DNA of 64,000 nucleotides from Desulfitibacter sp. BRH_c19 (GTDB taxonomy: Bacteria; Bacillota; DSM-16504; Desulfitibacterales; Desulfitibacteraceae): contig LOER01000038.1 in the NCBI GenBank assembly GCA_001515945.1, positions 1 through 64,000 on the forward strand, given 5' to 3'. The position numbers and the translations under genes were made by a program. The notes under the pieces were generated by a model. That model was not told where the DNA came from and searched no databases. It was given only the letters and a program-made list of their open reading frames with translations. How positions within the stretch are numbered: position 1 is the stretch's first letter; each line of letters starts with the position of its first letter. Below are positions 15,012-59,260 of this stretch, piece by piece.

Positions 15012-16353
15012 AATTATAGCTGGATTAGTAGCAATAGCATTTCTGGTTGCCTTAGCTTTTGCTCTTTTTACCGTTATCAACACAAAGAGGCTGTTTGCAG
15101 ATTATCTCAATGAGTATAGAATCACAAGACAAGTTCAGTGGGCTAGGGTTTTGGCGGAACACTATTTACAAAGAGGCTCTTGGCAGGGTGTAAATCAAAT
15201 ATTACCAGGTTCCAGGGAAAACGGTAGCATGGGAATGATGAGGGGTAGAAGAGTTACTTCAGGTGAAATGATTGTACTGGCTGGACCTAACGGTGATATA
15301 CTTGCAGCAACAGATAGATTTGACAGTCAATCATTAAACGGGGATGAACTCCAACAAGCTAGTGCCATTCAGATAGATGAAAAAATTATTGGTTATGTAT
15401 ATCTAAAAGTGGAGTACGAAATTCCTGGACTTGCCACCATGGAGAGCCAGTTTCTTAGATCAGTTTATTATTCTAGCATTGGTGGAGGAATACTGGTTGC
15501 AATCATAGCAGCCCTGATTGGAATATCCTTTAGTAATAGATTGATTCACCCACTAAAACAACTCACGGATTCTGCAAAAAAAATAACCAAGGGTGAATGG
15601 GAAGTAAAAGTTAATTTGGATCGGGATGATGAAGTAGGAGAACTGGCCCAGGCATTTAATGTTATGACAGAAAAACTGCGAGAAACCGAAATGGCAAGAA
15701 AGACACTTGTAGCTGATGTTGCCCATGAATTAAGGAACCCACTTGCCACATTGCGGGCACAGTTGGAAAGCATTCAAGAAGGTGTAACCAAACCAGAGAC
15801 TCAGGTTATCCTATCATTAAATGATGAAGTTATTCGTCTTAGTAAGCTAGTAAATGATTTACAGGACTTATCATTGGCTGAGGTAGGCAAATTGAGTTTA
15901 AATAAAGAAAATGCAAGACTAGATTTATTACTACAAAAAGTAGTAGGTTTATTTGAAGGTTCCATTCAAGATAAGGAAATTGAGCTTTCTATTACAGTTC
16001 CGGAACTACCTCAAATTAGTATGGATTCGCAAAGAATGACTCAGGTAATAATTAATCTTCTGGGTAACGCAATCAGACATACTCCATTTGGGCAAAAAAT
16101 AAGTATCTCAGGGGGAGAAAAGGCTAGAGAAATATATGTAGAGATATTTAATGAAGGGGAGTCTATATCTATCAAAGACCTACCCTATATATTTAATAGA
16201 TTTTATAGGGCAGATAAGGGAAGAGCCAGAGAACAGGGTGGCTCAGGACTTGGATTGGCAATTACTAAAAGCCTTATCGAAGCCCATGGGGGTACAATTG
16301 GAGTACTTAATGATTATAAAGGTGTAAAATTTTTCTTTATACTACCAAAATGA
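14992..16353 (+). CDS. Membrane sensor histidine kinase
   Basis: 453-residue kinase: N-terminal membrane helix (about residues 6-27), an extracytoplasmic sensor region with a Met/Gly-rich stretch (GSMGMMRGRR), a second helix (about 158-180), HAMP, phospho-acceptor His in ADVAHELRNPLATL, and an ATPase domain with LLGNAIRHTP and GGSGLGLAITKSL. GTG at 14992 is preferred because GGGGGAG precedes it. Partner of the regulator at 14310. The signal is unknown; the Met-rich stretch hints at metal or envelope stress. Confidence 0.92.
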   Translation: MKTLRVRIIAGLVAIAFLVALAFALFTVINTKRLFADYLNEYRITRQVQWARVLAEHYLQRGSWQGVNQILPGSRENGSMGMMRGRRVTSGEMIVLAGPNGDILAATDRFDSQSLNGDELQQASAIQIDEKIIGYVYLKVEYEIPGLATMESQFLRSVYYSSIGGGILVAIIAALIGISFSNRLIHPLKQLTDSAKKITKGEWEVKVNLDRDDEVGELAQAFNVMTEKLRETEMARKTLVADVAHELRNPLATLRAQLESIQEGVTKPETQVILSLNDEVIRLSKLVNDLQDLSLAEVGKLSLNKENARLDLLLQKVVGLFEGSIQDKEIELSITVPELPQISMDSQRMTQVIINLLGNAIRHTPFGQKISISGGEKAREIYVEIFNEGESISIKDLPYIFNRFYRADKGRAREQGGSGLGLAITKSLIEAHGGTIGVLNDYKGVKFFFILPK

Positions 16354-16384
16354 GTTGTTTTGGAATTTGTTGGAGGTGAAATGA

Positions 16385-17050
16385 ATGAGTAGTGTATTTG
16401 ATATTCTAGGGCCAGTAATGGTAGGACCATCTAGCTCCCACACAGCGGGAGCAGTAAATATAGGCAGAGTTGCAAGGCAGATCCTTGGTAATGAACCTAT
16501 TAGAGCGGATATTACTCTATATGGGTCTTTTGCGATGACTTACAGGGGACATGGTACTGACAGAGCATTAGTAGCTGGTATTCTTGGAATGACCACCTAT
16601 GATTCAAGAATAAAAAATGCCCTAGAAATTGCTGAGCAACAAAATGTTAAGATAAATTTTGTATTAGAAGGACAACATCCCTATCATGCAAATACAGCAA
16701 AAATCGTTATTTATGGTGGAGATCACAGGGCAGAAATTATAGGAGTATCAATTGGTGGAGGAAGAATTTCTATCAAAGAAATAGATGGTTTTGCAGTAAA
16801 TCTATCGGGCGAATATCATACTCTTATTTGCTCATATGATGAACAATTGGGTATGGTGGCACAGGTATCTGCTATCCTTGCCTCAGAGAATGTAAATATA
16901 GCTTTTATGCGTGTTTCAAGAAATGAAAACAGAGATAGAGCATTGATGATTGTACAAGTGGATCAACCTTTGACAGAAGAAGTGGTTTCCAAACTAAATA
17001 AATTAGAGGCTATAGCACATGTAAAATATCTAAGAAAAATAGAATTTTAA
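16385..17050 (+). CDS. sdaAB: L-serine dehydratase, iron-sulfur dependent, beta subunit
   Basis: 221-residue subunit of the Fe-S L-serine deaminase that converts serine to pyruvate and ammonia. The N-terminal MVGPSSSHTAGAVNIGRVAR is the conserved beta-domain motif; the C-terminal part (about residues 148-221, TLICSYDEQLGMVAQVSAIL) is an ACT domain. A GGAGGTGAA site precedes the ATG. sdaAA follows 17 bases after the stop. Confidence 0.95.
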   Translation: MSSVFDILGPVMVGPSSSHTAGAVNIGRVARQILGNEPIRADITLYGSFAMTYRGHGTDRALVAGILGMTTYDSRIKNALEIAEQQNVKINFVLEGQHPYHANTAKIVIYGGDHRAEIIGVSIGGGRISIKEIDGFAVNLSGEYHTLICSYDEQLGMVAQVSAILASENVNIAFMRVSRNENRDRALMIVQVDQPLTEEVVSKLNKLEAIAHVKYLRKIEF

Positions 17051-49883: not shown

Positions 49884-49957
49884 GAGAATATGGCGCAGAT
49901 GGGAGAGCCCTGACTGGCATCCAGGAGGTCAGGGCTCAAGTGCCTCTATCTCCACCA
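49884..49957 (+). pseudogene. Degenerate tRNA-Ala relic
   Basis: A D-arm (GCGCAGATGGGAGAG), an anticodon arm with loop CTGGCAT (GGC) and a 3' CCACCA are recognisable, but the acceptor and T stems have several mismatches. Similar to the intact tRNA-Ala(GGC) at 26372; unlikely to fold into a working tRNA. Confidence 0.55.
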
Positions 49958-50029
49958 AATCAATAATTAACTGAGACCAATTCGGTCCAAGTTTTTTGTT
50001 ATTTTTGCAATAATTAAATAAAGGATGAC

Positions 50030-50138
50030 AGGCTTCTAACATTAGATAGAGATAGGGATGAGGATGCATCATTTCCTTGAGTGTCCCAGGCCTAGGTCCT
50101 CTATCAATTACTGCATGTCCCTGACTAAACTCAGGCAA
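50030..50138 (-). pseudogene. Fragment of a Crp/Fnr-family regulator gene
   Basis: Reads GHAVIDRGPRPGTLKEM followed by a hydrophobic stretch, matching GHAIIDGGPTPGTLQAI of the intact regulator that starts at 50819 on the same strand. Only about 35 codons of the cNMP-binding domain remain; no HTH. Confidence 0.6.
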
Positions 50139-50141
50139 TGG

Positions 50142-50819
50142 CTAGATATCCTTAGCCAATAATTTTAAATTTTCAATATCTTTGATAAGAAACTGATTTC
50201 GTGTGATTTCAATTATGCCTTTATCTCTTAATCGGTAAAGTAGCCTACAAACAACTTCACGCTTAGTTCCTATCCTTGCTGCCATATCATCAAGTGTCAT
50301 ATTTCTGGGAACTTGATGTTGATCCTTGGAATAGTATTCGTCGAGTATTAAGCTTGCAAGGCGGGTTAAAACGTCTTCAAAAGCCATTTGGTTAATTGTA
50401 TTAGAAGCTTCGCGCATTCGCTTCATTAGAATTGTAGTAATTTCCCAAAGAGCTTCTGGGTTTTGTTTTATAATAGGCATTAAATGATCCTTATGCCATA
50501 AATAGATCCTGGTGTTTGTCTGAATTGCTTGGAGTGTTCCGGGTGTGGGGCCCCCGTCAATTATTGCGTGCCCTAAAAATATGTCTCCCGGTTTAAATGT
50601 GCGTAAAACAAGGCTATGGCCTTTATGCGATTCTCTCGCCATTACCATAATTCCTTTTTGTACCAAAATAATATAAGGCAATAAATCATTATACAAAGAG
50701 ATTATTTGACCTTTTTTTAGGTCACGACATACGGCTAGCTCACATAATTTTGTGAGCTCTTTTTTATTCAATTTTCTAAATACCAATGCTTTTGACATCA
50801 TAATCAATACATTATCCAC
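50142..50819 (-). CDS. Crp/Fnr-family transcriptional regulator
   Basis: 225 residues: cyclic-nucleotide-binding-type beta roll (about 1-120, GHSLVLRTFKPGDIFLGHAI), a dimer helix (NPEALWEITTILMKRM) and a Crp HTH (MTLDDMAARIGTKREVVCR). No N-terminal Cys cluster like that of Fnr is seen, though Cys26 and Cys31 (approximate) are present in LCELAVC. GTG start with AAGGGGG upstream. Divergent from the heme/membrane-protein operon, so probably its O2-, NO- or redox-dependent activator. Confidence 0.88.
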   Translation of the reverse strand: MDNVLIMMSKALVFRKLNKKELTKLCELAVCRDLKKGQIISLYNDLLPYIILVQKGIMVMARESHKGHSLVLRTFKPGDIFLGHAIIDGGPTPGTLQAIQTNTRIYLWHKDHLMPIIKQNPEALWEITTILMKRMREASNTINQMAFEDVLTRLASLILDEYYSKDQHQVPRNMTLDDMAARIGTKREVVCRLLYRLRDKGIIEITRNQFLIKDIENLKLLAKDI

Positions 50820-51022
50820 AGAATGTTACCCCCTTGGCAGTATTGGGTAGCTGAAAGGTCCCTGAAATACCTTTCTTCTATGACTATGTTTGCAAAGATG
50901 CTTAGATCAGAGAATTATAGTTTTCGGATTCTATTATTAGTCATCCTTATTATATACATAAAATTAATTTATTGCTTTGCCTAAAGTCAAAGTATTTTTT
51001 GAAATTCAATGATAGTTTCTTA

Positions 51023-51064
51023 TTAGATAGAAATAATCTTCTTAAGAAATAGGGGTGATATAAT
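51023..51064 (+). promoter_or_regulatory. Candidate Crp-family site and promoter of the heme-respiratory operon
   Basis: TATAAT at 51059-51064 has no good -35 box; instead the imperfect dyad TTAGAT-N6-AATCTT (51023-51040) is centred near -40, where Crp-type activators bind. Weak dyad match. Confidence 0.35.
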
Positions 51065-51173
51065 GCAATGATTTATTAAAGGTAATAGTAATCTTTTTGT
51101 ATTTGTAATTAGGCTGATTCTAGTTTAAGACAGGTTTAGAAAAAACATAGGCTATGAAGGAGGTTTTATTAAT

Positions 51174-52091
51174 ATGTCATTATATTCTCAAGAAGTATCT
51201 TCGGGAGCAAGAAAGTTAGTTATCGTTTTGGTGTTGATATCAGCCGTATTCATGATTGGAGTACAGCCGTTTATGACTGCACCTGCTTTGGATACGATTC
51301 AAGTGGCCCAGTTTGAACGAATTGATAAGTTTTATGCTGAAGGAAACCCAGCAGCACCGCTTATAGAAAATACTCCAGCAATGGTTGGTTTCTTTTTTGC
51401 ACAATGGACAATGCTTTCATTCATTGGAGGATTAGTTTTATTCATTATTGCTAAGCCCTTGTACAATGGGGTTAAATGGGCTAAAGCAATTGCCTTGATA
51501 TGTCTTGCAATGCCTTCTATAGGTGGGGCTTATATGCTGGTACCTTGGATGAACTTTGTTAGTAGTTCGCCTGATGCAGGTTTTCCGCCAGCGGTAATTA
51601 TCATGGCAGCCGGCCTAATCCCCTATTTTGCTATTGTTATGGCGGGTAAAAGTAGTGCTATTGAAAAAGCAATCCTCTTCACAATTTTTACCTTGCTCGG
51701 GGTTGCAGCTGCTTATACCTTTGGTAATGGCCATGCAGCACACCGCATACTAATTGGGCATCCTATGCTACCCCAATATGGACCAGATATCTTTGTATTA
51801 AACTATGCTCGTACTGCAGGTTGGATAGCTGTACTGGGACTTACGGCTGCTATCTATTTGCTGGCAATGCGTAAAGAAGTTGGTTGGTGGATTGGACTAT
51901 CTGCAGGAGCAGTCACAGGTTTTACTGGCCTATTAACCCATTACTATCGTCATGTTACCGTGGATTATTTACTTCAGGGCTTAGCTGGATTGGCTATTGT
52001 AGCAATCCTGTTAATTCCCATGGTAAAACGACTGCTTATTGGTAATGTAGAACAGAAAGGAACAATATCGGAAAAATTTCATAGTGCATAG
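51174..52091 (+). CDS. His-rich multi-span membrane protein (unknown, oxidase-cluster)
   Basis: 305 residues with about eight helices. Conserved-looking polar spots include NGHAAHRILIGHPMLPQ and THYYRHVTVDYLLQG, several His at membrane edges that could bind heme or metal. No CxxCH motif. I do not recognise the family with confidence. AAGGAGG precedes the ATG. First gene of the operon under the divergent Crp regulator and probably a partner subunit of the protein at 52370. Confidence 0.65.
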   Translation: MSLYSQEVSSGARKLVIVLVLISAVFMIGVQPFMTAPALDTIQVAQFERIDKFYAEGNPAAPLIENTPAMVGFFFAQWTMLSFIGGLVLFIIAKPLYNGVKWAKAIALICLAMPSIGGAYMLVPWMNFVSSSPDAGFPPAVIIMAAGLIPYFAIVMAGKSSAIEKAILFTIFTLLGVAAAYTFGNGHAAHRILIGHPMLPQYGPDIFVLNYARTAGWIAVLGLTAAIYLLAMRKEVGWWIGLSAGAVTGFTGLLTHYYRHVTVDYLLQGLAGLAIVAILLIPMVKRLLIGNVEQKGTISEKFHSA

Positions 52092-52156
52092 AATAGCAGT
52101 ACGGTAATTCAGATGTGTAATGGAACCATAACATTACAATGAATAGAGGTGAAGTG

Positions 52157-52234
52157 ATGGAAGGATCATATTTTTTGATTGGTTCTGTCGTAGTTGGTGC
52201 TGTTCTCATGTTGGTATTTTGGAAATTAAATTAA
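52157..52234 (+). CDS. 25-residue membrane peptide, candidate small subunit
   Basis: Begins MEGSYFLIGSVVVGAVLM and ends LVFWKLN: a single helix. AGAGGTGA lies just before the ATG and the gene is between two membrane-protein genes of one operon. Size and place recall small subunits of terminal oxidases such as CydX or CcoS-like peptides (analogy, not homology). Confidence 0.55.
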   Translation: MEGSYFLIGSVVVGAVLMLVFWKLN

Positions 52235-52369
52235 TGGTGCCAAACATTATTCCGTAATCAGATTTAGCTGAAAGTGTATGTGAGCTGGGTGAAATGCCTG
52301 GCTCACTTCTAACCTTTCTTATTAACTGAAGAGAATGTAAAAATGATAAGGAATGGGGGAGGGCGATTA

Positions 52370-53896
52370 ATGTCCAATCGTATAAAGTACCTGTTTAGTT
52401 CCACAAATGGGTTGGTGCTTATGGCGATAGCGATAATAAGCATAATAGCAGCTATTTGGGGTACTTTGTCAGGACCCATGGTGGAAATGGGAGTAAGAGA
52501 TATTACAGTAAAAGTTTTAGGCATGAAAATGGTAGAGGCAGAACGCGAGGGTAGGGTAATAATGCTCTATCATGTGATAGCCATGGCAGTAATAGCTATT
52601 TTAGTATATTTAATTACCGCAAATGTAAGGATGGATAAGAAATTAGCTCTATTTGCAAATGCATTGGTAACAGCAGGGTATCTTATTGTTGTACCGGCAG
52701 GCTTGTTATTTGCTTATTTTGGTCGTAACTGGGTAATGCATGGTATGTATGTATTTGGCTTATCGATGATTTTTTTATCAGGCTTGATACTAGCTGTGGC
52801 CCTGTGGCCTTGGAATAAAAAATACTATTTAGAAAAAGGTTCCCCATATGCTCATCTACCTTCTGGTCTAGACTTAGAAAGGGTTGCCTTTTGGGCTATG
52901 ACTTTAGCTACACTCGGATCCGCAGCTTTAGGAGGAATGGTAGCATCATATTTTGGTAATGGCTTTGAAGTGTTTTTGGCAGAAGACACCATACGTCATC
53001 CTGTAAAGAACCACCTGCAACTATCAATAGTGGGTCATTTACATATTATGCTGGCTCTAATGGGGATAGCAATAACTTTGGTAATGGGAAGATGGTTAGA
53101 TTTTAAAGGTATATGGCATAAAATAGCTATGCCTAGCATGGTACTTGGTACAATTACTCTTACAATAGGAGCTTGGGCTGTTGTACCTGCTCAGAATATA
53201 GCTCATACAATCATCTATGTGGGTGCGGTGTTTTCCATGTCTGGAGGCTTGTTCTTAGTAATCTATGGCATGCCTAAACTAGTCAAGGATCGACTACAAG
53301 AGCAGGGTCTTGTAAAAGCGACTTTTTGGCAAAAGACTATGGCCCTTTTCCATGACCCATTAAAGTTTGGGGTATTGTGGCAGATGATATTTATGAATTT
53401 TACAACCAGTTTTGTAGGAATTTTCATGGCTATCAGGCTAACAGAAATTTTTCGAGTATGGCCCCATCGAGAAGAACGTATAGAACTAGCTGGTCATTGG
53501 CATATATTGTCTGCCATTATAGCTATAATGATTCTGTTCTATTTCTTAGATAGGATAGGCTTGAAAGGAAGAATCCGACAATGGTTTGGGTGGACAATGA
53601 TTATAGCTTCAGATTTAGCCTTTGCAGCAATAACTGTTTTTGAGATGAAACGGTTATTTGTTACCGAATATATGCAACAGCCTGTAGTGAACTTAACAAT
53701 GATATTAACTGACATAGGATTAGGGTTGATACTAATCTTATTGGCTGGTTTTTTGATATGGCGAATAATTGACCTGTTTAAAAGTAAAGGGCTATGGATA
53801 AAAGAACTAGAGGAAACAGATATTGAAGTGACATGTTTAGATGAAACAACTACAGTACAATCTAAACAAGAGTCAGGACGGGAGGTGTCACAATGA
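52370..53896 (+). CDS. Large membrane protein distantly like heme-copper oxidase subunit I
   Basis: 508 residues, about 12 helices. His positions suggest heme binding: H68 (MLYHVIAMAV), H124 (WVMHGMYVFG), H223/H225 (SIVGHLHIMLALMG), H279 (NIAHTIIYVG) and H376/H378 (LAGHWHILSAI). GHLHIMLALMG resembles the helix-X segment of oxidase/NOR subunit I, but the His-His copper pair of helix VII is not seen. ATG at 52370 follows GGGGGAGGG. The linked heme O synthase and NapH-like gene support a heme electron-transfer role. Could be a divergent NO reductase or oxidase, or a quinol-binding cytochrome b. Confidence 0.6.
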   Translation: MSNRIKYLFSSTNGLVLMAIAIISIIAAIWGTLSGPMVEMGVRDITVKVLGMKMVEAEREGRVIMLYHVIAMAVIAILVYLITANVRMDKKLALFANALVTAGYLIVVPAGLLFAYFGRNWVMHGMYVFGLSMIFLSGLILAVALWPWNKKYYLEKGSPYAHLPSGLDLERVAFWAMTLATLGSAALGGMVASYFGNGFEVFLAEDTIRHPVKNHLQLSIVGHLHIMLALMGIAITLVMGRWLDFKGIWHKIAMPSMVLGTITLTIGAWAVVPAQNIAHTIIYVGAVFSMSGGLFLVIYGMPKLVKDRLQEQGLVKATFWQKTMALFHDPLKFGVLWQMIFMNFTTSFVGIFMAIRLTEIFRVWPHREERIELAGHWHILSAIIAIMILFYFLDRIGLKGRIRQWFGWTMIIASDLAFAAITVFEMKRLFVTEYMQQPVVNLTMILTDIGLGLILILLAGFLIWRIIDLFKSKGLWIKELEETDIEVTCLDETTTVQSKQESGREVSQ

Positions 53897-54804
53897 GAAG
53901 CATAACTATGATATTAATGGTATTAGTCATTGCTGTATTTGCAAGTGGGTGTGGTGTAGTGCCAGATACTCCAGATGCTGTTAAGTTATACAATAAAGCC
54001 GGTGTTGATCCGAATTCATGGGCATTAGTTCCAACTGGTGAGTTCTTACAGGGTCAATTTAACAAATCCACTACTATAGACTATGACTATGAAATTATGG
54101 TTACAAACGTAACTAATTATCAATATGCTAGATATCTTGAGGAGGTTCTGGCTGCAGGAGAGATTGAGATTGAAAATGGCAACATATATGGTTATTACCC
54201 TGGAGATGAATTTGAAGATGGTAAGCACGAAGAAAAGATCGAAGAAGGATATTATTTGCATATGCCCCTAGAAGATCTAGCCACTAGAATCACATACGAC
54301 GGAACTAGTTTTTATGTAAAGGATGGTTATGAAAACCATCCAGTAACCATGGTAAGCTGGTTTGGAGCTAAAGCTTATGCCGATTTTTTTAATTACAGAC
54401 TACCAACAGGACTTGAGTGGGAAAAAGCAGCCCGTGGTACGGATGACCGTCCTTATCCTTGGGGTGATGAGCTTACAAAATATAATGCAAATTACTATCA
54501 TAGCGGTGACCCCTTTGAAACCAACAATGGCTATAGTGACACAACACCCGTTGGATTTTACAACGGACAAAAATATGGTGATTTTCAGACCTTTGATTCC
54601 CCTAGCCCTTATGGCCTGTATGATATGGCCGGCAATGTAGCTGACTGGACAGGAGAAAAACACTATAAAGTACATTATCGTTATATGCGCGGAGGAAATA
54701 GTGGCAGCTATGGAATAGATACCCGAATCTGGAAGGATAACAGTTCGCATCCAGAATATGTGAGTCCTAGTGTAGGATTCCGCTGTATACGCGAGCCACA
54801 ATAA
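53893..54804 (+). CDS. Formylglycine-generating-enzyme-like (SUMF1/NirV-like) lipoprotein
   Basis: 303 residues: lipoprotein signal ending FASGC, then an FGE-sulfatase domain (VPTGEFLQG, HPVTMVSWFGAKAYADF, RLPTGLEWEKAARG, YPWGDE, SPYGLYDMAGNVADWTG, SVGFRCI). The two Cys of true formylglycine enzymes are not evident, so it is probably structural or redox-related, like NirV of nitrite-reductase loci. It overlaps the preceding gene by four bases and would sit outside the membrane next to that protein. Confidence 0.85.
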   Translation: MRSITMILMVLVIAVFASGCGVVPDTPDAVKLYNKAGVDPNSWALVPTGEFLQGQFNKSTTIDYDYEIMVTNVTNYQYARYLEEVLAAGEIEIENGNIYGYYPGDEFEDGKHEEKIEEGYYLHMPLEDLATRITYDGTSFYVKDGYENHPVTMVSWFGAKAYADFFNYRLPTGLEWEKAARGTDDRPYPWGDELTKYNANYYHSGDPFETNNGYSDTTPVGFYNGQKYGDFQTFDSPSPYGLYDMAGNVADWTGEKHYKVHYRYMRGGNSGSYGIDTRIWKDNSSHPEYVSPSVGFRCIREPQ

Positions 54805-54831
54805 AACTGCATAAGAACGGGGGGAGAACTT

Positions 54832-55737
54832 ATGAATACCAGCCATGTAAGAAATACGCACCTACCCCAGGAAACAGTAGTATATTCTTTGGAAAAACTT
54901 AAGCAGTACTGGATGCTTATAAAAAGCAAACAAACGTTTTTACTGGTAATTACAGGGTGGGCAGGATTTAGTAGTGGGGCATGTCCCCTTACACACTCGA
55001 AAATGTTGTTAGCTTCTCTTGCCTGCCTTTTTTTGGTAATTAGTGGATGTACCATGTTTAATATGATACTTGATCGGGATATCGATGCCAAGATGAACCG
55101 GACAGCTAAAAGACCTTTGCCCAGTGGGGCATTAAAGGTAAAAGAAGTCATTCTTTGGGGAAGCATCATTTTACTAGTAGGTTTAGGGTGGGCCTTTTTG
55201 CTCAGTCCCCTATTTGGATTGATTGTGGCGGCAGGAGTATTTATAGATCTAGTGGTCTATACCATATTACTAAAAAGAACTACAGCTTTTTCAATCCTCT
55301 TTGGGGGTATATCTGGTGGTATGCCAATTTTAGCTGGAAGGGCTTTAGGGTTAGGCACTATAGATACTATTGGAGTCCTCCTTGCCTTAGCAATACTGTT
55401 GTGGATACCAACCCACATTATGACATTTAGCATTAAATATAGAGATGATTATAGTAGGGCAGATATTCCAACATTCCCATCTCAGTATGGAGTGGAAAAC
55501 ACACGAAAAATAATTGCTATGTCTACAATTATGGCTAGTATAAGCATGATTCTATCAGCGTATTTAATAGGGATGAATGGATTATGTTTACTTGCAATGG
55601 TCTTATCCAGTATAATCCTGATTACTTTTGCAACTATTTATATGAGTAAATCCTGTTACAAGCTTGATATGAGATTATTTAAAATGGCATCCATCTACAT
55701 GCTAGTGACCATGATACTAATTGGTTTTGGGGCATAA
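54832..55737 (+). CDS. ctaB: Heme O synthase (protoheme IX farnesyltransferase)
   Basis: 301-residue UbiA-family membrane prenyltransferase. Diphosphate-binding motif NMILDRDIDAKMNRTAKRPL matches CtaB, as does the second motif KYRDDYSRADIPTFP. It would farnesylate heme b to heme O, a cofactor used by heme-copper oxidases. Unusual in a clostridium and strong evidence that an oxidase-like protein is encoded here (52370). GGGGGGAG lies before the ATG. Confidence 0.9.
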   Translation: MNTSHVRNTHLPQETVVYSLEKLKQYWMLIKSKQTFLLVITGWAGFSSGACPLTHSKMLLASLACLFLVISGCTMFNMILDRDIDAKMNRTAKRPLPSGALKVKEVILWGSIILLVGLGWAFLLSPLFGLIVAAGVFIDLVVYTILLKRTTAFSILFGGISGGMPILAGRALGLGTIDTIGVLLALAILLWIPTHIMTFSIKYRDDYSRADIPTFPSQYGVENTRKIIAMSTIMASISMILSAYLIGMNGLCLLAMVLSSIILITFATIYMSKSCYKLDMRLFKMASIYMLVTMILIGFGA

Positions 55738-55775
55738 CTTGAGATAAAACTATTTAAGCAACAGGGGGAATATTT

Positions 55776-56957
55776 GTGATTAGTGTTAGTAAATTGGTAT
55801 GTAATACTGAAAGCTTTGGAGATACTTTACGATACAACAAGGATTCTAAAGGTACTTCTCATGGAACTACATGTCAGAAAGGGCCAGTAGTGGTATGGAA
55901 TTGTACCAAAACCTGTAATCTAAATTGTATTCACTGTTATGCAAGTGCAAGTGCTGAAAATGAAGAATGTGATGGGGAATTAACCACTAAGGAAGGTAAA
56001 ACTCTTATTGAGAATTTAAAGGCGTATAATGTTCCTGTGCTTCTAATTTCAGGTGGGGAGCCTTTAATGCGTGATGATATACTCTATTTAGCTAAATATG
56101 CTAATAATTTAAATATTAGGACTACCTTTTCTACGAATGGAACCCTGATAACAAAACAGATAGCTAAACAGCTTAAAGAAGCAGGTACTAGCTATGTCGG
56201 TATTAGTATTGATGGTATTGGTGAAACAAATGATTCTTTTCGTGGGCAAAATGGAGCTTTTGACAAGGCTGTAAGAGGAATAGAAAATTGTTTGTCAGTA
56301 GGGCAAAGAGTTGGTTTGCGTTTTACGATAAATAAGCGTAACTTGTCGCAGCTTCCCGGTATTTTTACTCTTATTAAGGATATAGCTATTCCTCGTGCCT
56401 GTTTTTATCACCTTGTATATAGTGGGCGAGGAAGTAGTTTGATCAAGGAGGACATAAGTCTTCAGGAAGCAAGGGAAACCATGGAACTGATTATAGACCA
56501 TACAAGAAACTTTCAAAGTATGGGTTTAGATAAGGAGATTCTAACAGTAGCAAATCATGCAGATGGAATTTATCTTTACCTTAAGTTAAAGAACGAAGAC
56601 CCTGTAAAAGCTAAAAAAGCCTGGGAATTATTAAAAAATAATGGGGGTAATCGTACAGGAATGGCCATTTCAAGCGTGGATTGGAATGGAAATGTTCACC
56701 CTGACCAATTTACTGCTAATTATACTATCGGAAATGTTCGTAAAAAGCCCTTTGGGGAAATATGGAGTGACAAGTCTAATAAGATCCTTTTGGGGTTAAG
56801 AAATAGAAAATCTCTTCTAAAAGGTCGTTGCTCGAAGTGTCAATGGCTTGATATCTGTAATGGAAATGTTCGGGTTAGAGCTGAAGCGGTTTATGAAGAC
56901 TTATGGCAGTCAGATCCTGCCTGTTATTTATCAGATCTAGAAATTGGCCTTCAATAA
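55776..56957 (+). CDS. ahbC: Radical SAM heme-synthesis protein AhbC/NirJ
   Basis: 393 residues: radical SAM site CNLNCIHC, GGEP in LLISGGEPLMRDD, YVGISIDGIGETNDSFRG and CFYHLVYSGRGS, typical of AhbC (12,18-didecarboxysiroheme deacetylase) and its NirJ relatives; a C-terminal Cys-rich SPASM-type end (RCSKCQWLDICNGN, then DPACY) could hold another cluster. GTG start after GGGGGAA. With AhbA/AhbB downstream it belongs to the siroheme route to heme; heme d1 synthesis is the alternative. Confidence 0.87.
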   Translation: MISVSKLVCNTESFGDTLRYNKDSKGTSHGTTCQKGPVVVWNCTKTCNLNCIHCYASASAENEECDGELTTKEGKTLIENLKAYNVPVLLISGGEPLMRDDILYLAKYANNLNIRTTFSTNGTLITKQIAKQLKEAGTSYVGISIDGIGETNDSFRGQNGAFDKAVRGIENCLSVGQRVGLRFTINKRNLSQLPGIFTLIKDIAIPRACFYHLVYSGRGSSLIKEDISLQEARETMELIIDHTRNFQSMGLDKEILTVANHADGIYLYLKLKNEDPVKAKKAWELLKNNGGNRTGMAISSVDWNGNVHPDQFTANYTIGNVRKKPFGEIWSDKSNKILLGLRNRKSLLKGRCSKCQWLDICNGNVRVRAEAVYEDLWQSDPACYLSDLEIGLQ

Positions 56958-56968
56958 ACAGGATTCTT

Positions 56969-57110
56969 GACTTCAGGTGGAGTTTTTACTCCATCTGAAG
57001 GTTAGAAACCGTTATCCACGCTAGTAACACTTATGAACTTGTTCATTAGTGTTGAGTGTGTGCAAAGCTGGACATAGCACCGCTTATAGAAGATGGGAGT
57101 CTTGGAGTGA
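56969..57110 (+). repeat. Structured interspersed repeat, copy C (related to A and B)
   Basis: Starts CTTCAGGTGGAGT/ACTCCATCTGAAG (perfect stem apart from one G-T pair), followed by an AACACT-ATGAAC/GTTCAT-AGTGTT hairpin and CTTATAGAAGATGGGAGTCTT, which parallels CTTATAGAAGTGGGGGTCTT of copy B. It sits inside the operon between ahbC and ahbA. Confidence 0.55.
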
Positions 57111-57208
57111 AATTTGTCAACTTGTTGGCATAGCTGAACCCATGCAAGGCTAGCGGTGATAGTCATCGGATAAGTACTGGCTTGAGTAAACAAGGGTAGG
57201 TGTGTAAA

Positions 57209-57694
57209 ATGGATTATCCTGACAAACAAATTCTATCCATTATTCAAAGTGACTTTCCAATTGTTGCTAGACCGTACTTATGTATAGCTAAAAAAGTTGG
57301 TCTGTCCGAGGCAGAGGTGTTGATGAGGCTAAAGAAATTGCTTGCAGATGGGTTGATTAGACGTATAGGCGCGGTTCTAGATTCTAAATGCCTTGGCTAT
57401 AGCAGTACTCTTTGTGCTATGCAAGTGTCTGAGGAAAGAATACCAGATGTGGCTACTGTAATTAGCTCTTATGAAGGGGTGACTCATAATTATATCCGAG
57501 AACACAAATACAACCTCTGGTTTACTCTAATATGTAATTCTCCCCAAATGCTGAATTATATCATTCAAGAAATAACAAATAAAACCGGTATAACAGTTCA
57601 TACTTTGCCTGCAATGAAACTGTTTAAGATAAGCGTAAAACTCCCAGTTCCCGGAATGGAGGTAGATACTTATGAAGTTAACCACTTTAGATAA
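57209..57694 (+). CDS. ahbA: Siroheme decarboxylase subunit AhbA (Lrp-like)
   Basis: 161 residues: Lrp/AsnC-like HTH (about 1-60, QSDFPIVARPYLCIAKKVGL) and an effector-type beta domain with VTHNYIREHKYNLWFTLI. Siroheme decarboxylase subunits keep this regulator fold but act as enzymes, converting siroheme to 12,18-didecarboxysiroheme. ATG at 57209 preferred. Overlaps ahbB by 23 bases. Confidence 0.88.
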   Translation: MDYPDKQILSIIQSDFPIVARPYLCIAKKVGLSEAEVLMRLKKLLADGLIRRIGAVLDSKCLGYSSTLCAMQVSEERIPDVATVISSYEGVTHNYIREHKYNLWFTLICNSPQMLNYIIQEITNKTGITVHTLPAMKLFKISVKLPVPGMEVDTYEVNHFR

Positions 57695-58163
57695 AGTCAT
57701 AATTTGTGAATTGCAAAATAGCATTTCCCTAGACTCTCGCCCTTTTAATTCCATTGCAGAGCAAATTGGTATTACAGAAGTAGATTTAATTAAAAGAATT
57801 GAATTATTACAGGAAAAAGGTTTTATCAGGCGGGTTGGAGCAGTTGTTAATCACAGAAAGATGGGTTATATTGCTAATCCAATGATTGCTTGGAATGTAC
57901 CAGATAATCTTGTAGATAAAGCGGGGCAAGAAATTGCTGCCTATTCTGAAGTAACTCATTGCTATCTAAGACCACGTCTGCCAGATTTTCCGTATAATAT
58001 TTATTCCATGATTCACAATCAAACGCGGGAAGCATCAGCTAAAATGGCTAAAGAAATCTCGGTATCAATAGGAATTGCGGATTACATGTTGTTATATAGC
58101 AGCGTTGAACTTAAAAAGTCAAGTATGAAGTATTTCAACGAGGAGGGGTTACAAGAAGCTTGA
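57672..58163 (+). CDS. ahbB: Siroheme decarboxylase subunit AhbB (Lrp-like)
   Basis: 163 residues, same fold as AhbA: DSRPFNSIAEQIGI then FIRRVGAVVNHRKMGY, and VTHCYLRPRLPDFPYNIY with the His/Tyr pattern used for siroheme binding in AhbB/NirD-like proteins. Forms a heterodimer with AhbA. Homologous to NirDL/NirG/NirH of heme d1 synthesis. Confidence 0.88.
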   Translation: MKLTTLDKVIICELQNSISLDSRPFNSIAEQIGITEVDLIKRIELLQEKGFIRRVGAVVNHRKMGYIANPMIAWNVPDNLVDKAGQEIAAYSEVTHCYLRPRLPDFPYNIYSMIHNQTREASAKMAKEISVSIGIADYMLLYSSVELKKSSMKYFNEEGLQEA

Positions 58164-58222
58164 CTCAGAAACCAGATTTTGATTAACTCATTTAAAGCGT
58201 GTGCAAAGGAAGTGACATTATA

Positions 58223-59260
58223 ATGCTAGTAACTGTTACAGCTGTAGTTTTAGTTATAAATATTCCATTTGGCTTTTGGCGCGCGAGAGTTAAAAAACTT
58301 TCATTACCATGGTTATTATCGATCCACTTTCCGATAATTATAGCATTTATGTTGCGTGCTATAGCTGATTTAGGATGGGGATTATCCACCTTTCCTCCAT
58401 TTATGGCGGCCTTTCTTTTAGGCCAGTTTTTTGGAGGAAAGCTATATCTAACTTCTCAAAATTATAAAAAAATGAACTCAGTGAAAACCATTTGCTTTAT
58501 CCTTTTGAAGAATATAAGTATTAAAAAAGAGCAAATAAAATGTGTGGCAAAAACTAAATGGCATAGAAAAAATATTCAAGCACTCTTTTTTGTACTTTTT
58601 ATTTGGTTTATATTAAATTTTATTCCTAGTGTAAAATTTCTTTTTACTGTTCTTATATTATTTATTTTAATTACTTTAACGCTGCGCACAGGACTTTGTG
58701 GTTGGATGTGTCCTTTTGGAACACTATTCGAAAGGTTTAATACACTTGGAGGAAAAATAGAAAGTATTGGCATTATTCAACCTAGATACAAAAAATATAA
58801 AAAATGGATAAAAGACAACAGAGGTTTATTAAATAAAATTGATAAATACGCTAGGTACTTTAAATATCCTTTCTTACTATGGACTATTTTTTCATCTGTT
58901 TATTCATTCAGAGCTGGACATTTGGCTGTCCCATATGTATTTCTAGTATTGTTAACTTTAACGTTATTTATTAATAGGGCTTGGTGTAGATATGCCTGCC
59001 CAGTAGGTGCGCTAATAGGAGTTTTAGGAAAGTTAAGCCCAACTATAATAACACGGGATGAACAAAAATGTATCAAATGTAACAGATGTAGTAGAGTTTG
59101 TTCAATGAATATCGACGTAGCTAAACAAAAGCATGTAAAAGCTACAGATTGCATCACATGTTTAGAATGCGTTGATGCTTGTCCTATCCATGGAGCATTA
59201 GAATTGAGAGTTGCTTTACCTCGAATTACAAATAGGAAAAACAGAAATACTAGTTTTTAG
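58223..59260 (+). CDS. NapH/NosR-like membrane protein with two [4Fe-4S] ferredoxin sites
   Basis: 345 residues. Three N-terminal helices (VTVTAVVLVINIPFGFW, IHFPIIIAFMLRA, FMAAFLLGQFFGG), then two NapH-type membrane CxxxCP motifs (CGWMCPFGTLFERF, CRYACPVGALIG) and a C-terminal 2[4Fe-4S] domain (CIKCNRCSRVC, CITCLECVDAC). Such proteins carry electrons from quinol across the membrane in nitrate, nitrous oxide or related pathways. The extra N-terminal helices look like a fusion. ATG at 58223 with AAGGAAGTGA upstream. Last gene of the operon. Confidence 0.88.
   Translation: MLVTVTAVVLVINIPFGFWRARVKKLSLPWLLSIHFPIIIAFMLRAIADLGWGLSTFPPFMAAFLLGQFFGGKLYLTSQNYKKMNSVKTICFILLKNISIKKEQIKCVAKTKWHRKNIQALFFVLFIWFILNFIPSVKFLFTVLILFILITLTLRTGLCGWMCPFGTLFERFNTLGGKIESIGIIQPRYKKYKKWIKDNRGLLNKIDKYARYFKYPFLLWTIFSSVYSFRAGHLAVPYVFLVLLTLTLFINRAWCRYACPVGALIGVLGKLSPTIITRDEQKCIKCNRCSRVCSMNIDVAKQKHVKATDCITCLECVDACPIHGALELRVALPRITNRKNRNTSF

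Follow-up and report, generated by a model that had tools for sequence, protein, structure and literature searches.

What reaction could call for a heme O synthase encoded beside an unfamiliar membrane protein, in a bacterium that has no other obvious use for this heme, is the question raised by a gene cluster of Desulfitibacter sp. BRH_c19. The window analysed here is a stretch of 64,000 nucleotides (positions 1 to 64,000 of contig LOER01000038.1, GenBank assembly GCA_001515945.1), and within it the gene of heme O synthase (CtaB, a member of the UbiA family; 54832..55737, + strand) follows the genes of a SUMF1/FGE-like exported lipoprotein (53893..54804, +) and of a 508-aa, 12-helix membrane protein (52370..53896, +), our candidate for a catalytic subunit related to the heme-copper oxidases (HCOs). 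The host genome has no match to COX1, to CtaA (heme A synthase) or to CydA (cytochrome bd) at E<=0.001, and it holds just one further UbiA-family match, presumably MenA to judge from its motifs; the heme O synthase of the window is thus left without any other obvious client. The modelled structure leads us to propose, at about even strength, that the 508-aa protein belongs to an undescribed and very divergent branch of the HCOs and acts as a heme-O-dependent terminal reductase, probably for nitric oxide (NO). An earlier note on this DNA had suggested a terminal oxidoreductase fed by quinol, and the HCO fold of the model, seven invariant histidines and the linkage to CtaB and to the lipoprotein all speak for the 508-aa protein being probably a heme protein of that kind.

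The first line of evidence is the predicted fold. An AlphaFold2 model of the 508-aa protein, built on nine sequences (pLDDT 71.5, pTM 0.78), has about twelve long helices arranged as in the 12-helix HCO fold. A Foldseek search with this model put CcoN, the C-family HCO of the cbb3 oxidases, on top; further HCOs came at E near 0.2, interspersed with helical proteins that are not related to them. When the 1000 best Foldseek chains were re-aligned with VIA-align 2, all 50 entries among the matches listed were HCO subunit I, with Z from 16.6 to 21.8, where a best Z near 14 is typical of mostly helical models that have no clear match; CcoN (8smr_E) reached Z 21.8 with a root-mean-square deviation (rmsd) of 4.0 over 404 residues, and the NO reductase cNOR (3o0r_B) reached Z 19.5. 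It could still be argued that the protein is some other 12-helix membrane protein, a transporter or a different heme b protein, whose likeness to HCOs comes from AlphaFold2 and from the geometry of helix bundles; the lack of any sequence link to HCOs and the moderate confidence of the model would fit such a view. We nonetheless hold it to be very unlikely, given the uniformity of the VIA-align 2 matches and the independent agreement of the histidine positions and of the CtaB linkage.

The sequence itself is remote from everything described. Searches of Pfam, NCBIfam and PHROGs gave no credible match for the 508-aa protein or for the second membrane protein of the cluster, a 305-aa protein that we call M305, and the 508-aa protein has none among the sequences of the PDB either; the earlier note, too, could not match the two to a described complex. 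Among 23 family members, none matched COX1 (PF00115) at E<=0.1 and none a plausible NCBIfam model, and an hmmsearch of the PDB sequences with the family profile found 0 chains, so the profile similarity to COX1 that characterises the known HCOs is absent here. Surveys of HCOs based on COX1 or NOR profiles would therefore miss the family. Its membership in the HCO superfamily, which we consider probable, rests on the predicted fold, the pattern of histidines and the gene linkage.

This pattern was read from a family alignment of 53 rows representing 50 distinct genes (L028/L062, L033/L063 and L046/L060 are duplicates); pieces below 300 aa, genes shadowed by the open reading frame (ORF) caller (L047, L052, L064), the fragment L015 and those matches of the 396-genome search of the Anaerolineae class that had not been fetched by then lie outside it. 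Seven histidines are invariant in 53/53 rows, H68, H124, H223, H225, H279, H376 and H378, and the other invariant polar residues counted are R62, Y67, T101, Y116, R171, E205, R209, M227, D329, E369, W377 and W408. By the model, H68 lies in long helix 2, H124 in helix 4, H223 and H225 in helix 6, H279 at the start of helix 8, and H376 and H378 in helix 10, and six of the seven (H68, H223-x-H225, H279, H376-x-H378) are spaced roughly as in HCOs. H68 occupies the place of the histidine of transmembrane helix 2 (TM2) that holds the low-spin heme in HCOs, and H376-W-H378 that of the HxH of TM10 where two hemes are bound, which makes all three putative ligands. The third signature, a TM6 histidine with a later His-His pair (HH), is altered: H223 and H225 are present in helix 6, and the single H279 replaces the pair.

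The distances are 155/56/97 residues for H68-H223-H279-H376, compared with 141/51/89 for TM2-TM6-HH-TM10 in the one cNOR with all sites located by patterns. The TM6-HH and HH-TM10 gaps are 50/88 in five CcoN proteins, 51/92-98 in qNOR and L092, and 49/86 in the one A-type protein with both sites found, and the HH-TM10 gap is 105 in the B-like L089. The protein thus shares with CcoN its modelled 12-helix fold, a GHxH in TM10 and a TM6-HH-TM10 spacing that agrees within about 10 residues, but differs in its single histidine and in the absence of profile similarity (E 0.05); its operon also has a SUMF1-like lipoprotein where cbb3 has cytochrome c subunits, and a linked heme O synthase. With cNOR NorB and qNOR it has in common the fold, the HxH, a similar histidine spacing and the lack of a TM6 tyrosine, but it lacks the HLWVE motif and is not similar to them by profile (E 0.18), and the operon encodes neither NorC, nor another cytochrome c, nor a qNOR extension.

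It is at the active site that the family departs most from the described HCOs. The O2 reductases carry their active-site tyrosine on TM6 in the A and B families or near the His-His pair in the C family, whereas in all 53 rows the residue four positions after H223 is Met227 and no invariant tyrosine lies near H279, residue 283 being Y in 33 rows, N in 19 and T in one. The glutamate found at the +4 position in cNOR and qNOR is absent as well, its place being held by the same methionine. For comparison, a study of AxqNOR names His486, His537 and His538 as ligands of FeB and places Glu490 four residues after His486 (PMC10256718). The HCO signature is also incomplete in gNOR, which is counted as a NOR family and has no histidine at the TM6 place (DMVADG). 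Because no tyrosine stands four residues after the TM6 histidine, NO is the most likely substrate; the Crp-type regulator of the operon and the presence of gNOR-like or nrfHA genes beside some relatives, all described below, also favour it.

From these residues we infer the following scheme. H68 and H378 would hold a low-spin heme, and H376 would hold a high-spin heme, namely heme O supplied by the CtaB encoded next to it; H223, H225 and H279, with or without the invariant Met227, could bind a non-heme Cu or Fe that faces the high-spin heme. Electrons would come from menaquinol, in this operon perhaps through the NapH-like Fe-S protein, a task that multiheme cytochromes of the lipoprotein type may have in some relatives, and the SUMF1-like lipoprotein would be a fixed partner subunit on the outer face. 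The enzyme would convert NO to nitrous oxide (N2O), and the system would serve to remove NO in anaerobes under the control of Crp/Fnr. That every element holds at once, a new deep HCO branch whose non-heme metal is held by a pair of histidines on TM6 and a single one further on, Met in place of the Tyr, Glu, Asp, Asn or Gln of the described families, heme O, a SUMF1-like outer lipoprotein, reduction of NO to N2O and invisibility to COX1-type profiles, is a tentative proposal to which we give distinctly less than an even chance.

An O2 reductase of the same fold, a heme o3-Cu enzyme or scavenger directed against trace oxygen in which Y67, Y116 or Met227 takes the role of the TM6 tyrosine, would explain part of these data. 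Heme O is typical of the O2-reducing bo-type enzymes, Y67 and Y116 are indeed invariant, and the lack of COX1 and cytochrome bd in the host is in keeping with it. Yet neither the TM6 position nor the surroundings of H279 have an invariant tyrosine, a COX1-family gene is present anyway in 9/10 of the clade I Anaerolineae carriers tested, and the neighbours in clade II are gNOR-like; we therefore regard an O2 reductase as unlikely.

The second body of evidence comes from the neighbourhood of the relatives, counted over 65 loci (the window and L047 excluded), of which 52 belong to clade I, 11 to clade II, including L052 and L156, placed there by score and not in the tree, and two to an intermediate group. 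In clade I an FGE-like lipoprotein gene lies at most 300 bases downstream in 51/52 loci, the exception being L139, and heme O synthase is found within 1.5 kb in 47 of the 50 loci whose sequence extends 2 kb or more downstream. In the window the end of the 508-aa gene shares an ATGA with the start of the lipoprotein gene, and in the Bacillota metagenome-assembled genome (MAG) Ch109 the HCO-like gene and the FGE gene form one 804-aa open frame. The block of 508-aa gene, lipoprotein and CtaB recurs in dozens of genomes from two phyla, which is more than chance. The earlier note had named co-occurrence of the 508-aa gene with the lipoprotein and ctaB among the points to look for, and a lack of conservation in other genomes among the findings that would overturn its proposal; the clade I counts bear the linkage out.

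The two intermediate loci, L048 and L049, have neither FGE nor CtaB nearby. In clade II the lipoprotein is found in 0/11 loci, the gene precedes a CtaB next door in 4/11, and in 4/11 (L051, L053, L054, L055) it is immediately preceded by a COX1 gene of the gNOR-like type. The motif DMVADG is present in TM6 of three such COX1 neighbours, and L055 is cut before that point; one of the four scores 3.8e-63 against COX1. We read them as gNOR because a published table gives D as the gNOR active-site residue (Table A4 of PMC8756737). The gNOR-like protein is accordingly a normal COX1-family protein with D in TM6, in contrast to the 508-aa family with its 0/23. In L053 and L054, and also in L051 and L055, two HCO-fold proteins, the second by model, are thus predicted side by side.

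This arrangement raises the possibility that the family comprises HCO-fold heme proteins that are not terminal reductases but subunits for electron transfer, sensing or assembly, in clade II perhaps partners of gNOR. The single histidine in place of the His-His pair could be understood in this way, and H124 and H225 could bind extra hemes instead of Cu. On the other hand, no COX1 could be recognised in four carriers (the host, Ch109, Syntrophaceticus and G567), so the protein cannot be a gNOR partner only, and all seven histidines are invariant in both clades. A role other than that of a reductase seems to us improbable.

Returning to the proposed NO reductase, several observations weigh against it. 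At the supposed active site, residue 280, the second of the His-His pair in HCOs, varies (M/T/I/K), and we know of no counterpart of the invariant H124 in known HCOs. The confidence of the model is low at the ligand regions, with 59 for block 271-280 and 51 for block 371-380, and the best Foldseek match reached only E 9.8e-4 with a TM-score of about 0.55 and an rmsd of 7.3. In hhalign comparisons the family profile was not significantly similar to the HCO groups: E was 0.36 with A, 0.15 with B, 0.11 with gNOR, 0.18 with the enlarged NOR set and 0.05 with CcoN, and the best values, 0.014 and 0.015, were obtained with pooled sets, whereas all ten pairs among these five groups were linked at E 2.7e-6 or better. 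Between 6 and 9 sequences went into each group profile. With a NOR profile of just two sequences, even the links among known groups failed or were weak (B-N 0.02, N-g 0.0072, A-N 1.7e-4), which is why it was enlarged to 9. The weak local alignments were off register, H279 being set against the TM10 HxH of HCOs and the TM6 HLH against the TM10 HGH of NOR, so that sequence neither proves nor maps the HCO relation. CtaB is missing beside the gene in L064, L008 (Syntrophaceticus) and L009 (Ch109), the last two being the closest relatives in the tree. Finally, all that the host shows of NrfA is a weak stretch of similarity below the cut-off of that family, and no search was made for further nitrite reductases that produce NO.

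Genes of nitrite reduction do occur near some relatives. The nrfHA genes, which encode the ammonifying nitrite reductase, lie within 8 kb of 3/65 loci: in L014 (3957-5454) they are downstream and co-oriented, starting some 0.8 kb past ctaB, and in L141 (12591-14420) and L143 (3-1119) they face the other way at a distance of 3-8 kb. In three other loci of the 65 a tandem pair of multiheme lipoproteins is found directly upstream (L130:1320-3429, L132:5992-8083, L140:9562-11557); these cytochromes have 6-7 CxxCH motifs, several begin like lipoproteins, and they are possible electron donors. An uncharacterised protein of about seven helices, X231 (e.g. L012:1555-2250), is encoded directly upstream in 20/44 loci; one histidine is invariant in its 37/37 rows, and a second copy often follows ctaB.

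How the heme would be supplied can be followed in the same operon. The CtaB protein matches UbiA at 1.3e-46 and TIGR01473 at 6.1e-62, and its best NCBIfam match, heme O synthase, lies just under the cut-off (209.9 versus 210.3 bits). Downstream come a NirJ1/AhbC-type radical SAM protein (55776..56957, +) and the siroheme decarboxylase subunits AhbA (57200..57694, +; NF040708, 168.5 bits) and AhbB (57672..58163, +; NF040707, 171.8 bits), the latter two over their cut-offs. The earlier note had called the first of these AhbC; it scores higher with the NirJ1 model (TIGR04054, 635.7 bits) than with that of AhbC (TIGR04546, 527.9 bits), and both values are under the cut-off of 650. A gap of 242 bases separates its gene from that of AhbA, so the genes need not share one transcript.

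All three are second copies. A heme operon on another contig of the host (C32; L105) has AhbC-, AhbD-, AhbA- and AhbB-like genes, and its translations read as HemA, HemC, CobA/HemD, AhbC, HemB, AhbD, AhbA, AhbB and HemL; the AhbD-like gene scores 370.8 bits against an AhbD cut-off of 500, which the AhbC-like gene also fails to reach. Identities between the window genes and the C32 copies are 61% for the NirJ1/AhbC-type protein, 52% for AhbA and 49% for AhbB. In the operon of the window there is no AhbD-like gene, so that the full Ahb set (AhbA, AhbB, AhbC and AhbD) is not assembled there, and AhbA/AhbB genes occur in 0/65 related loci (within limited flanks), NirJ1 in one at a distance of 7.7 kb. 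The notion of a heme supply of its own, put forward in the earlier note, thus survives only in part: the genes are an additional set that is not conserved, and since AhbD and the early heme genes are lacking here and AhbC-, AhbD-, AhbA- and AhbB-like genes lie together elsewhere, the system is not self-contained. Probably they boost or specialise the flow of heme. CtaB together with AhbA and AhbB fits a supply of heme b or o better than one of heme d1, to which the NirJ1 score might point; no search was made for a heme d1 client.

The family is rare near the host and common elsewhere. Among 41 genomes searched as relatives of the host only the host itself carries it, and in its phylum 3/398 genomes do, the host and a fragment included, while in the class to which the Anaerolineae MAG G400 belongs it is present in 65/396 genomes, some with fragments only. 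Nine loci belong to named carriers, which are Syntrophaceticus schinkii, the Bacillota MAG Ch109 and Anaerolineae, Ardenticatenia and other Chloroflexi MAGs; the records G943 and G1083 are apparently the same as G147 and G286. No relatives were found in the plasmid and viral collections searched. In the tree, a large clade I unites the Anaerolineae with a group, supported at 0.975, of the host, S. schinkii and Ch109; clade II, which branches deeply (support 1.0 for its 9 rows), is separated from it by a small group. No description of the family appears among the literature matches listed for NOR and HCO families, NirV/FGE and the carriers, and the NOR survey of Murali et al. may name it; a reference set of Murali et al. 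comprises 67 NOR and 865 other HCO sequences according to PMC12569097. A family that profile surveys of O2 and NO respiration would miss is thus present in about one in six of the sampled genomes of the Anaerolineae class, as well as in Bacillota including S. schinkii. Should it reduce NO, anaerobes would have in it a defence against NO and an uncounted source of N2O; should its substrate be O2, it would be a hidden oxidase of anaerobes. Either way, it offers a natural active-site variant (M227, an extra His) that bears on the chemistry of O2 versus NO, and a candidate outgroup for the debate on HCO evolution.

All genes of the cluster were found open at the positions reported earlier, by ORF, Pfam and NCBIfam analysis, and the labels Crp/Fnr, SUMF1-like lipoprotein, heme O synthase, AhbA and AhbB agree with their Pfam or NCBIfam matches. 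The lipoprotein, whose FGE-sulfatase domain (PF03781, 1.3e-33) resembles that of FGE and NirV, has its lipobox cysteine, Cys20, in 51/51 rows and by its sequence is an exported protein. A SUMF1 domain is similarly placed next to an N-oxide enzyme in NirV beside nirK. The window copy has just two cysteines, at 20 (lipobox) and 298, and most relatives have an additional one at 163 (49/51 rows). FGE, according to a published study, has a bis-thiolate Cu(I) site (PMC12123546). Such a two-cysteine copper site is not expected in the window copy, as it has no second free cysteine, and a role as formylglycine generator is unlikely for it, a statement that does not extend to the relatives with Cys163; we therefore take it to be a structural or electron-entry partner.

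M305 (51174..52091, +), a polytopic membrane protein, is a possible accessory subunit. Its closest homologue found, in L061, is 49% identical and keeps four of its six histidines, including the NGHAA, GHP and THYxRH motifs, whereas the homologue in L010 (28%) keeps none, so that a metal or heme site is not a feature of the family. Such a site may nevertheless exist, and in some of the systems M305 may serve as an accessory subunit that carries heme. An AlphaFold2 model from two sequences (pTM 0.40) was unusable for a fold search. Among the 32 loci with at least 5 kb of upstream sequence, M305 homologues occur in 7, NapH-like genes in 4 and Crp-like genes in 13; the scarcity of M305, together with the lack of its histidines in L010, does not favour it as the metal-binding core, although L061 keeps four of them. 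In L061, an extended version of the cluster, a two-repeat lipoprotein (15037-16566) with weak similarity to FmdE (1.5e-4, just under the cut-off) and a GHSC motif in each repeat sits between two M305 homologues.

Between M305 and the 508-aa gene lies a putative micro-gene (52157..52234, +) for a 25-aa single-span membrane peptide, with one hydrophobic segment and a Shine-Dalgarno-like AGAGGTG. As a conserved small subunit it was rejected, no similar small ORF being found upstream in the relatives, several of which have fewer than 500 bases of sequence there. The cluster closes with a NapH-like membrane 4Fe-4S protein (58199..59260, +; TIGR02163 1.4e-22, 80.5 bits, under the cut-off of 213), a possible electron donor module. 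Feeding by quinol, which the earlier note suggested, is possible through this protein, but would be variable in view of the few loci with NapH-like genes.

At the other end, divergent from the operon, is the Crp/Fnr-type regulator (50142..50819, - strand), with a Crp-like helix-turn-helix (PF13545, 7.5e-14) and a cyclic-nucleotide-binding domain (PF00027, 8.3e-9). The region between it and the operon (50820-51173) contains no convincing dyad of a Crp site, and promoter-like sites there were not above shuffles (28 versus 34.1). Just beyond the regulator, a short ORF on the - strand (49929-50138) is 50% identical over about 26 aa to the neighbouring Crp protein (E 4e-5) and is probably what is left of another Crp gene; in L061, two Crp-like genes stand side by side.

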